From the IMG/VR virus record IMGVR_UViG_3300032118_000015, positions 1 through 44,860 of that record: a stretch of DNA of 44,860 nucleotides. One strand, written 5' to 3'. Positions 18,124 through 29,140 of this stretch are shown here, one piece after another. Under the pieces are notes generated by a model. That model was not told the origin of the DNA and searched no databases. It was given only the letters and a program-made list of their open reading frames with translations. Each line of letters starts with the position of its first letter. Position 1 is the stretch's first letter. The position numbers and the translations under genes were made by a program. This DNA is from a virus.

Positions 18124-18475
18124 TCCGGCGACGCGGAAAGGCGTCTTTGCCTATCGGGATACCGGATTCACGAAGAGGGATAATCGCCCCTATGACAAGC
18201 TGTGGTTCTGTGATGTCTATAGTTCCGACCCCAAGAAGATTAAAGGCTCGGAGCATGAATCGTATAACTTCAACCGTATCCATGCGGGCGGGAAATTCTT
18301 CAACAAAATCGGCGTTAATCCACAACAGCTTCCTTTGCTGATTAAGTTGGCGACAATCCTCTATAACGAGGTGGCCGGTACATCGGTCCCGCCGCCCACA
18401 CTACCCAAGCCATTGGACAAGCCAACGGAGACCGATGAGTTATACAACCTTGTCATGGGGCGGCCCAAGTTCTAG
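18068..18475 (+). CDS. Unknown protein overlapping the methyltransferase end
   Basis: 135 residues if started at ATG 18,068 (AAGGA about 9 bases upstream); ATG 18,086 is possible. It overlaps the methyltransferase by 56 bases. The product is basic and compact (YNRTGWLLSDPATRKGVFAY, HAGGKFFNKIGV) with a proline-rich linker. Family not recognised. Its end overlaps the convergent YopX-like gene by 36 bases. Confidence 0.65.
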   Translation: MELPRKMTIYNRTGWLLSDPATRKGVFAYRDTGFTKRDNRPYDKLWFCDVYSSDPKKIKGSEHESYNFNRIHAGGKFFNKIGVNPQQLPLLIKLATILYNEVAGTSVPPPTLPKPLDKPTETDELYNLVMGRPKF

Positions 18476-18847
18476 TAGTTCCGGATTCTCGTAGATGTTG
18501 CCGATGACTTCAAGATGAACACGAATATCGAAAAGTTCAAAGCCGACATCTTCATTCCAATGAGATGGATGGATTTGCCAAGTTAATTTATAATCCGAAA
18601 ATTCGACGGGGCCAGTGATGTTATCTAATAAACCAAATGTTTTTATAATATCCCCCTCATAAATCTCTTTCCCGTTCTTGTCCTTCAGGCCCGTGTATTG
18701 CATGAGAATTGCGCTTTTTATATTTGTGTATCTATAACCGGCGAAATCGCCACAAACCTTAATGCTTTCACTTAACCAATTAATCTCTATAACTTCATAT
18801 ATTCTTTTCCGATATGCATCCCACGCCCGAAACTTGATTTCCCTCAT
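18440..18847 (-). CDS. YopX-like phage protein
   Basis: 135 residues, ATG preceded by AGGAGGAGGATTAA. It begins MREIKFRAWDAYRKRIYEV and contains MQYTGLKDKNGKEIYEGDII and HLEVIGNIYENPELL, the hallmarks of the YopX family (PF09643), a common small phage protein of unknown function. An inverted repeat (TGCACA..TGTGCA, 18,861-18,878) lies right before its ribosome site. It is the last gene of the leftward arm. Confidence 0.9.
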   Translation of the reverse strand: MREIKFRAWDAYRKRIYEVIEINWLSESIKVCGDFAGYRYTNIKSAILMQYTGLKDKNGKEIYEGDIIKTFGLLDNITGPVEFSDYKLTWQIHPSHWNEDVGFELFDIRVHLEVIGNIYENPELLELGPPHDKVV

Positions 18848-18887: not shown

Positions 18888-19120
18888 TTGTCACCCGGGT
18901 GTAACTGGAACCACTATTTCCTGCCATTTCCCGCTTTCTCGATAAACCCGATTTTCCCCATATAATCCCCCTTTTCAGGCGTAGTCCAAACATGGCATAA
19001 TCGGATCCACAGTCCGATGCTCTAACCAGGTTGAGCTACACTCACCGCGTTTAGAATCAATTAATTACCTCACTTTCGGGGGAACCGTCAAAACCATTTG
19101 TCACCCCCACGTAACTGGAA
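18888..19120. other. Candidate attP region with flanking 23-bp arm-like repeats
   Basis: Two direct copies of TTGTCACCC-N4-GTAACTGGAA occur at 18,888-18,910 and 19,098-19,120, matching at 19 of 23 positions. They flank a tRNA-His fragment (18,991-19,046) beside the integrase 3' end. Tyrosine integrases use repeated arm-type sites around a core site, so this is a plausible attP. The right copy lies inside the last codons of the integrase gene. Confidence 0.6.
18991..19046 (-). other. tRNA-His(GTG) 5' portion, probable attP core
   Basis: On the minus strand the sequence gives the extra G-1 (19,046), acceptor 5' strand GTGAGTG, TA, D-arm GCTC/GAGC, and an anticodon arm TCGGA-CTGTGGA-TCCGA with anticodon GTG (19,008-19,010). 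After the variable loop it diverges: no T-loop TTCGAAT and no CACTCAC acceptor partner. It is therefore not a working tRNA but the kind of fragment phages keep at attP. Unusually it is the 5' rather than the 3' part. Confidence 0.75.
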
Positions 19121-20361
19121 ACGGAGTTATCGTTCAGGTTTTCCACAGCTTGAAGGGCGGACACCTTGCTCGGATGGACGTATCGCTGAGTAATCTTTAG
19201 GTCTCCGTGCCCCAGTATCAGTTGTACCAGCCCTATGTCTGCACCCGACTCTACGAGGCGTGTGGCAAATGTGTGGCGCAGGTCGTGAAAGCGTACGTCT
19301 TGAAGTCCGGCGGCGACGCGGGCCAGATTGTATGCCTTATGGATATTCTTGTATGCTTTTTGAGTACGATTGTTCGCAAAAACGTAACGTTCGCCCTTCT
19401 TGAACAGGGACTTTAGCAGTACGGCGACCTGACTATCCATCGGAACGTGACGGTATTTGCCGGACTTGGCGTATTCCACACGGATTTCGCGGGCCTTGAG
19501 GTCCACACAGCCCCATCGGAGACCCATGATCTCGCCCTCGCGCATACCTGTATGCAGGGCCAGAAACACCATGTCCCGAAGATACTGGGGGCAGGCGTCC
19601 ATCAACTTCTCGTCCTCGGCACGGGTCAGGATACGCTCTTTGAGGGATTCCTTCTCGGAGAACTTTTTAATGTATCGGGCCGGGGATTTCTCTACATAAC
19701 CATCTTGTATTGCAAGATTAAAGATACGCTTCACGAGTGACAGGTATCTATTGGCGGTGGATTTGGAGTTTCCCTCGACAAGTCGGGACTGTCTGAAAGC
19801 CTCGATATGAGAAGGTTCAATATCCCTCATATCCTTGTTTCCAAAAAACCCCACTACCGGCCCGATACGGCATTTATCATCTCGGTATGACCGCTTTGCC
19901 TTGGCGTAGGTGTCCATGTATCTCCGGGAATACTCCGCGAACGTGGCATACTTTGTGCCGCCGTTAAGGGAACGTACCCGCCGTTGGAGTTCTCGAAGCG
20001 CATCCTCTATGGACATGGCCGACTTGACCATAACTTGACGGCGCACACCGCCCTCTCGGTAGTCGATGTAGAAGCGCGTGATCCGCTTCCCCTTGCGGAT
20101 ATACACGCCGCCATACCCATACCCGTAGTAGTTGCCTCGTTTTCTACCCATGTTGAGTTGTCCTCCCGGCACTATTATAGACCTGTTCGTGTCGGGTGGC
20201 AAGATGGGTTTTTTGACGGAACCTAGGTAATTATCTAAATCTACCTGGGATATGAGTAGTTTGCGCCCGATTTTGCGCCACCTTAACTGCCGGTTCTTAT
20301 AGATGGTTACGACATGGACGTGCCACATCTCCGACAGTTGGCGCGGCGTGTAAAATGTCAT
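19057..20361 (-). CDS. int: Tyrosine integrase with excisionase-like N-terminal domain
   Basis: 434 residues. Catalytic residues are complete: R274 (HTGMREGEI), K299 (AKSGK), H359-x-x-R362 (HDLRHTF), H385 (LGHGD) and Y394 (TQRYVH). Residues 135-240 form the SAM-like core-binding domain. Residues 1-47 (TPRQLSEMWHVHVVTIYKNR..KLLISQVDLDNYL) look like the winged-helix HTH_17 domain of excisionases and MerR relatives, joined by a linker containing GNYYGYGYGG. It catalyses integration at the nearby candidate attP. The extra domain may supply excision control or arm-site binding. Start ATG overlaps the upstream gene by ATGA. Confidence 0.93.
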   Translation of the reverse strand: MTFYTPRQLSEMWHVHVVTIYKNRQLRWRKIGRKLLISQVDLDNYLGSVKKPILPPDTNRSIIVPGGQLNMGRKRGNYYGYGYGGVYIRKGKRITRFYIDYREGGVRRQVMVKSAMSIEDALRELQRRVRSLNGGTKYATFAEYSRRYMDTYAKAKRSYRDDKCRIGPVVGFFGNKDMRDIEPSHIEAFRQSRLVEGNSKSTANRYLSLVKRIFNLAIQDGYVEKSPARYIKKFSEKESLKERILTRAEDEKLMDACPQYLRDMVFLALHTGMREGEIMGLRWGCVDLKAREIRVEYAKSGKYRHVPMDSQVAVLLKSLFKKGERYVFANNRTQKAYKNIHKAYNLARVAAGLQDVRFHDLRHTFATRLVESGADIGLVQLILGHGDLKITQRYVHPSKVSALQAVENLNDNSVSSYVGVTNGFDGSPESEVIN

Positions 20362-27842: not shown

Positions 27843-28574
27843 TCACTTCTCCGGCCACCTTTCACCCTCGTGATCTAGTTCCCAATATTCCAAAAGTGCC
27901 AGAAACTTCTCCAAATAGTGTCCTAGTTTATTGAACGGTACCTCTTTCCATTCCGGCATTCCCGTCTCTTTGTCCAGGCGCAAAATCCCGACCCCCTCCA
28001 TCTTATTTCCCGTCATCTCCTCATGGGCATGGTTGTATGCGGCCAACTGCATGGGCATATCCGGCCAGAACCCCTTGCTCGACTTGAAATCTACCAAGTA
28101 TTTCTTATCATTAATTGTCCCGATAAAGTCCAATGTCCCGGCATACCCCATGCTGCTGTATACTACGTGTTCACTTAATAAACAATTTACGTCATTTTTG
28201 TTTACCCAATCAAGAAAAGCATTGAATGGAATCTTTATGTCTTGGTCAACGTCTATCTTGGCCCCCTTTTTGAAGTAATTTTCTATCGCCGCATGAACCC
28301 TTGTCCCGATGTCTCCGGCTTTCTCGTAGTCCCTCTTGGCCGTTGCCTTAGCATATTTTGTAAGGGCATCCAAATCCATCGCCTTGAACTGATCCAGCGT
28401 TATTTCGCCGGAATAAACTTTATCCAACAGGTTCTCGCGCAGGTAATTAACCGCCATTTTTGAGTAGTAAGCCCCTGGTATCTTCTTAACTTGTTGGATT
28501 ATTGTTGTTACCGATGGGAAATTGCCGAATGGTGTTGGGTAGTACCCTTCTTCATCCCTCTTTATCTTCTTCAT
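27843..28574 (-). CDS. PD-(D/E)XK nuclease, RecB/Cas4-like
   Basis: 243 residues. The motif order fits the PDDEXK_1 fold: GTRVHAAIE (H94), SEHVVYS (E135), AGTLDFIG (D149), KYLVDFKSSKG (D162, K164) and MQLAAYNHA (Q176). These exonucleases process double-strand ends in phage recombination or act with a recombinase. No annealing protein is recognised next to it. Overlaps the upstream gene by ATGA; its stop lies 6 bases before promoter P2. Confidence 0.85.
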   Translation of the reverse strand: MKKIKRDEEGYYPTPFGNFPSVTTIIQQVKKIPGAYYSKMAVNYLRENLLDKVYSGEITLDQFKAMDLDALTKYAKATAKRDYEKAGDIGTRVHAAIENYFKKGAKIDVDQDIKIPFNAFLDWVNKNDVNCLLSEHVVYSSMGYAGTLDFIGTINDKKYLVDFKSSKGFWPDMPMQLAAYNHAHEEMTGNKMEGVGILRLDKETGMPEWKEVPFNKLGHYLEKFLALLEYWELDHEGERWPEK

Positions 28575-29140
28575 GCGTTCCCCCCATACTCGGCGATGGC
28601 CTTGCAGATAACGCTGAATGGGATAATCTTCCTTACGATCTTAGCCATGTCTTTATGGGCGGCGTCCCCTGCGGCCCATGCGGCGGCCCGTGCGGCGGCG
28701 GCGGCCCATGCGGCGGCCCCTGCGGCCCATGCGGCGGCCCGTGCGGCCCATGCGGCGGCGGCCCATGCGGCGGCCCGTGCGGCATCCCCTGCGGCCCATG
28801 CGGCGGCCCGTGCGGTGGCCCGTGCGGCGGCCCGTGCGGCGGCGGCGGCAGTTCGTACTTGGCCTATAGTCGCCTCGCCCCTTGTCCATGCCTCAGCCGT
28901 TTCGATAGCAATCCGTGGTCGATCTTCGCCTGCCGGAATATACTTCAATGCCGTTCTTGCACAACCACACGCCGCCAACACGAGTAACTTCCGGTCAACA
29001 TTCAGTTTGCCCGCAATCCACAACAGCCAATCGCCCCGTTGACATGTCCCCCATGCTTTCTTGTGCGTCTTTCGCCCGGCCCACTTCACGGCTTCGGTAC
29101 ATGCGCCTAACTTGGTCAGGATGTCTTTCGTAGATTTCAT
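28571..29140 (-). CDS. Imm-5-like protein with alanine-rich repeats
   Basis: 189 residues. The N-terminal half (residues 1-90: AVKWAGRKTHKKAWGTCQRG, LAACGCARTALKYIP, GEDRPRIAIETAEAWTRGEA) matches the family annotated as putative immunity protein (Imm-5-like). Residues about 97-162 consist almost only of A with regularly placed W, R, G and D (AAxWAAGDAARAAAWAA), forming a long helix or helical repeat. The tail ICKAIAEYGGNA recurs in neighbouring genes. No toxin gene is adjacent. The family's activity is not established. The repeat is very GC-rich and may be unstable. Confidence 0.65.
   Translation of the reverse strand: MKSTKDILTKLGACTEAVKWAGRKTHKKAWGTCQRGDWLLWIAGKLNVDRKLLVLAACGCARTALKYIPAGEDRPRIAIETAEAWTRGEATIGQVRTAAAAARAAARATARAAAWAAGDAARAAAWAAAAWAARAAAWAAGAAAWAAAAARAAAWAAGDAAHKDMAKIVRKIIPFSVICKAIAEYGGNA
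28658..28855. repeat. GC-rich GCGGCC/GCGGCG tandem-like repeat within a gene
   Basis: About 200 bases built from GCGGCC, GCGGCG, CATGCGGC and CGTGCGGC units, unlike the surrounding composition. It encodes the alanine-rich part of the Imm-5-like protein on the minus strand and leaves several frames open on both strands, which creates false frames. Slippage or unequal recombination would change its length. Confidence 0.85.

Follow-up and report, generated by a model that had tools for sequence, protein, structure and literature searches.

The stretch analysed here, referred to below as the window, is a virus record without an attached host (IMG/VR IMGVR_UViG_3300032118_000015, positions 1 to 44,860). 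On its minus strand a tyrosine integrase gene stops at 19057, and about 10 nt past this stop there begins the 5' part of a tRNA-His, located midway between two 23-nt repeats. The features of the region are as follows.

18440..18847, minus strand: YopX-family protein gene, a neighbour outside attP (Pfam PF09643, E=7e-28)
18888..18910, minus strand: arm-type repeat beyond the core as seen from the integrase gene, TTCCAGTTACACCCGGGTGACAA, putative integrase binding (repeat and motif)
19000..19046, minus strand: tRNA-His 5' part, G-1 to about nt 44, attP core (base-by-base reading and host tRNA match)
19057..20361, minus strand: tyrosine integrase of 434 aa with an HTH_17-like N-terminus (PF00589, E=1e-37; HTH_17, E=2e-4; PHROG integrase)
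19064..19091, minus strand: promoter-like TTGACG-N16-GGTAAT, 18 nt upstream of tRNA nt 1 and within the end of the integrase coding sequence (promoter model score)
19098..19120, minus strand: integrase-side arm-type repeat, TTCCAGTTACGTGGGGGTGACAA, within the integrase gene, putative integrase binding (repeat; motif recurrence in the family)

Read downwards from G-1 at 19046, the minus strand presents the acceptor 5' strand (GTGAGTG), TA, the D-arm (GCTC-AACCTGGTTA-GAGC), a single A and a complete anticodon arm (TCGGA-CTGTGGA-TCCGA), with the anticodon GTG at 19010-19008. The likeness to tRNA ends in the variable loop, and the 3' half is absent from attP. This base-by-base reading agrees with the preliminary description, in which the same succession of elements was followed by divergence. 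No complete tRNA is present; ARAGORN called none over the window, a scan of the window with all Rfam models gave no match at gathering score, and the Rfam tRNA model matched the 5' part alone, partially and under its cut-off (28.7 and 24.3 bits in two runs).

The two 23-nt repeats are identical at 19 of 23 positions, their centres are about 100 and 110 nt away from the anticodon, and each contains a tandem GTTAC/GTGAC pair with an 11-bp step. The motif GTNAC-N6-GTNAC occurs twice in the whole 44.9 kb, both times in these repeats, and it recurs within 160 nt of the 3' end in 9 of the 20 integrase genes examined (that of the window included), versus 0.02 expected. The earlier proposal that the repeats are integrase arm sites is thus well supported by motif distribution. 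Their placing was refined, as the repeat at 19098-19120 overlaps the integrase coding sequence, the 3' end of which contains both this repeat and the promoter-like sequence. Catalytic-type residues of the integrase are conserved across the family alignment. Its HTH_17-like N-terminus is of the excisionase type, as it is in several full-length relatives from Aminicenantia.

A second phage, L002, has an attP alike, an integrase 95% identical to that of the window and an integrase-side arm repeat identical at 23 of 23 positions. Its tRNA 5' part is unchanged from G-1 to position 38 and changed at position 39, where the substitution would disrupt an anticodon-stem pair unless that base comes from the host. 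This pattern points to a crossover inside the anticodon loop. Relative to the window, a segment of roughly 340 nt (about 6461-6802 of L002; a 78-aa ORF without Pfam match) splits the integrase 3' end, and the original C-terminal coding stretch persists downstream of it as an orphan. The arm and the promoter-like segment are kept, though they lie outside the integrase reading frame of L002.

The host as read from attP

Exact patterns of the tRNA part gave no match, either with 45 nt in viral contigs or with 39 nt in genome contigs; a 5'-half pattern with a free D-loop was needed, and it was run on genome contigs. It matched 46 of them, many from Candidatus Aminicenantes or Saccharicenans. Contigs having ATCGGACTGTGGATCCGA in common with attP were nearly all labelled Aminicenantes or Acidobacteriota. 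In the class set of 142 Aminicenantia genomes, 105 contained a match to the tRNA-His 5' part, nearly all of them a single one; when the extra matches were inspected, four short ones ending at T33 proved to be ordinary tRNA-Trp genes. The top match was 98% identical over 48 nt (E=2e-17), and with matches of this quality the likeness of the viral sequence to tRNA-His is not a product of chance. The fit is not complete, as even the nearest host tRNA-His departs from attP in its D-loop, by a single base or a single indel. When the attP half was joined in silico to the 3' halves of six host genes, ARAGORN called tRNA-His in the hybrids, and attP alone remained uncalled.

Assignment of the phage to Candidatus Aminicenantes, made from attP alone, is well supported by these matches. 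A methanogen host, first considered because of a distant relative of the portal, was given up once the tRNA match was known. No integrated copy of the window phage or of L002 was found, and a terminase search of the 142 host-class genomes gave no relative. Elsewhere in the window, 28571-29140 in the early gene block resembles an Imm5-like immunity protein (E=6e-6, slightly above the Pfam cut-off). The ends of the window bear no exact terminal repeat of 15-400 nt, so that the record may be incomplete; the position of an intact attP in mid-record argues for a free phage form.

Integrase relatives and their tRNA ends

Relatives of the integrase at E<=1e-40 are present in 29 of the 142 Aminicenantia genomes, with about 30-45% identity, and several of them can be aligned from end to end, HTH_17-like N-terminus included. 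A phylum-wide sample yielded six genomes at E<=1e-50, five of which were already known from the Aminicenantia set. Phage and plasmid records gave partial integrase matches alone, near 30%, and when viral sequences were scanned broadly with the alignment of the integrases, no relative exceeded about 36%. By inspection, most integrase stop codons in the family adjoin a tRNA anticodon arm. Twenty family att sites have a displaced 3' half (two of them, L085 and L071, in tRNA-His), five have a whole tRNA and are counted as the 5'-half type, and the remainder show neither. For the 3' type, genomes G036 and G006 have the whole tRNA at the opposite element end, as expected. The 5' type comprises L070 (Arg), L074 (Sec), L083 (Lys), L298 (Leu) and L300 (Arg), the label of L070, L074 and L298 resting on the adjoining whole tRNA. 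In L083 and L300 the integrase stop codon is a TAG at tRNA positions 8-10; in L298 the reading frame extends across the 5' half of tRNA-Leu as far as a stop in its variable loop.

The preliminary description had proposed that attL and attR be compared in prophages, and among the five 5'-type elements two show both ends. In G100 a whole tRNA-Lys overlaps the integrase stop and is followed by tRNA-Glu; an identical 40-nt tRNA-Lys 5' half lies 10 kb off on the same strand. ATTGACTTTAG precedes both tRNA-Lys copies, once within the integrase coding end, and no second copy of the tRNA-Glu was seen in that genome. In G019, contig C125 shows 6.6 kb of synteny with G020 (92%) up to nt 43 of tRNA-Arg, past which the two differ and C125 contains the arm GGACACTATATGGACACCA. 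In the same genome, contig C38 has an integrase with the GGACACTATATGGACACCA arm in its 3' end, followed by a complete tRNA-Arg whose 5' half is identical over the 43 nt; the downstream flank of C38 has no match in G020, so that the empty site is seen from one side only. Both relatives thus possess a whole tRNA and a displaced 5' fragment at opposite element ends.

Three further observations concern tRNA halves outside these two cases. Genome G087 contains isolated tRNA-Sec 5' halves, which fits L074. In this one bin (L202-L204) there are several tRNA-Sec copies and halves, and the displaced halves are of both the 5' and the 3' kind, a pattern suggestive of more than one integration into the tRNA-Sec gene. 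At 4440-4800 of L116 (G037:C167) there is an attP-like relic with no integrase nearby, in which the leader TAATTGATTCTAAAC, common with the window, precedes a tRNA-Arg(CCG) 5' half, and GTCACAATTT repeats flank both sides. A class-wide search for this leader, one mismatch allowed, returned two exact matches, and most of the others look like chance. The viral contig L294, which has GTAATTAATTGATTCTAAA, was set aside, as no tRNA half lies beside it.

A phage-derived 5' half would need a promoter from the phage, as had been pointed out in the preliminary description; the comparative evidence agrees, and TTGACG-N16-GGTAAT upstream of the tRNA part is a candidate. With a model derived from the regions upstream of 68 Aminicenantia tRNAs, tRNA-His in many cases (-35 TTGACA, -10 GAAAAT, N17), it scored 9.2 (shuffle p about 0.04), which places it at the 25th percentile of the real regions. 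Promoter scores were higher at six integrase ends of the 5' type than at sixteen 3'-type controls (p=0.004); scores were poor for L070 and L300, and the -35 selected in L074 and in L298 lies within an arm-like repeat. A promoter at the integrase 3' end is likely on these grounds.

In the integrase tree (33 rows, several deep forks weak) the 5' type appears in more than one place; three changes are needed, at least two of them forced by well supported branches. A single origin of the 5' type with subsequent losses is also compatible with the data. We give about even chances to the view that one integrase family, with gene end and arm sites fixed beside the anticodon core, switched more than once between tRNA 3' and 5' halves, and that, where the 5' half is carried, the 3' end of the integrase gene has two uses, as an arm site and as a stand-in for the promoter of an essential tRNA present in single copy.

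Proposed integration into tRNA-His

Taken together, the region 18888-19120 reads as a real attP, and it is very probable that it belongs to a temperate phage of Candidatus Aminicenantes which integrates into tRNA-His. The tyrosine integrase would recombine the anticodon-loop core of attP with the host tRNA-His gene. The phage 5' half, together with the promoter-like sequence upstream of it in the integrase 3' end, would then join the host 3' half and rebuild the tRNA, and the host promoter and host 5' half would be moved to the far prophage end, beside the YopX gene. For the window phage, this scheme presumes its own integration, the precise point of crossover, binding at the arms and activity of the promoter. 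The claims made beforehand, that attP carries a tRNA 5' half and that crossover at the anticodon leaves the host gene with a phage-derived one, accord with the host tRNA-His match, the family integrases ending at tRNA anticodons and the two relatives with both element ends.

The fragment might instead be a decayed remnant of a once complete phage tRNA-His, unrelated to integration. Phages do carry and lose tRNA genes, and GTTTGGA, a few bases past the break, is faintly T-loop-like. Nevertheless, the 3' half is missing altogether next to an intact 5' part, the break falls at the usual recombination point and recurs in L002, the arm repeats are symmetric about the core, and in relatives tRNA halves occupy the corresponding place beside the integrase. 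The preliminary description had named two findings that would speak against its reading, related prophages integrated elsewhere and a decayed tRNA without a host gene; the relatives lie in tRNA genes, and a matching host tRNA-His gene is present. We consider decay very improbable. Even less credit is due to tRNA-dependent lysogeny, in which the host tRNA gene is broken and a complete phage tRNA replaces it. This system, described for mycobacteriophages, combines a full phage tRNA with a short core (PMC10865867); a tyrosine integrase and an attB in a host tRNA gene are common to both, but the window holds no complete tRNA of the same isotype, and the tract it shares with the host gene has the length needed for rebuilding that gene.

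A more serious alternative retains the same attP and supposes that transcription of the integrase gene reads through into the rebuilt tRNA, with no promoter at the 3' end of that gene. The integrase gene does run into the tRNA on the same strand, archaeal elements of the pTN3 type are described so, and some 5'-type relatives have no convincing promoter. An essential tRNA would, however, hinge on integrase expression in the lysogen. Moreover, the promoter-like geometry resembles that of the host gene, the sequence is kept in L002 outside the integrase reading frame, and the integrase end in G100 has the motif before its tRNA-Lys in common with the host promoter. Read-through transcription is therefore possible, yet distinctly less likely than a promoter within the integrase end.

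Integration with a phage-borne 5' half is a less common form of a strategy that is well known in phages, and elements with 5' fragments are already catalogued. Among the 3919 islands in Islander, 159 have a displaced fragment from the 5' part of the tDNA (PMC4383910). As in those islands, the attP of the window contains the 5' part of the target tRNA and adjoins a tyrosine integrase; in the islands one end has the whole gene and the other the 5' fragment. The host lineage is not represented there by name, however, and here a free phage attP is seen, with arm repeat and promoter-like sequence overlapping the integrase gene. The archaeal pTN3 family likewise carries a tRNA 5' half and uses the anticodon region, and its integration separates the gene from the native promoter (PMC5495485, PMC8371274). 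Whereas the attP of pTN3 is located inside the integrase gene, which is split by integration, the core of the window phage lies just past the integrase stop at 19057; the gene would stay whole, and the host is bacterial. The common 3'-half prophages, the majority of the window's integrase family, resemble this phage in the integrase 3' end by the anticodon core and in tandem arm repeats, but they carry the 3' half and retain the host promoter.

The host group, the 3'-half majority within the integrase family and the overlap of arm and promoter-like sequences with the integrase gene are added here to what was described before, as is the existing cataloguing of this class of elements. A virus of an uncultured bacterial group gets a well-supported host assignment from its attP alone. 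With an integrase family that uses both tRNA halves, the question why phages nearly always carry the 3' half becomes directly testable, as does the way in which the rare 5' type replaces the lost promoter.
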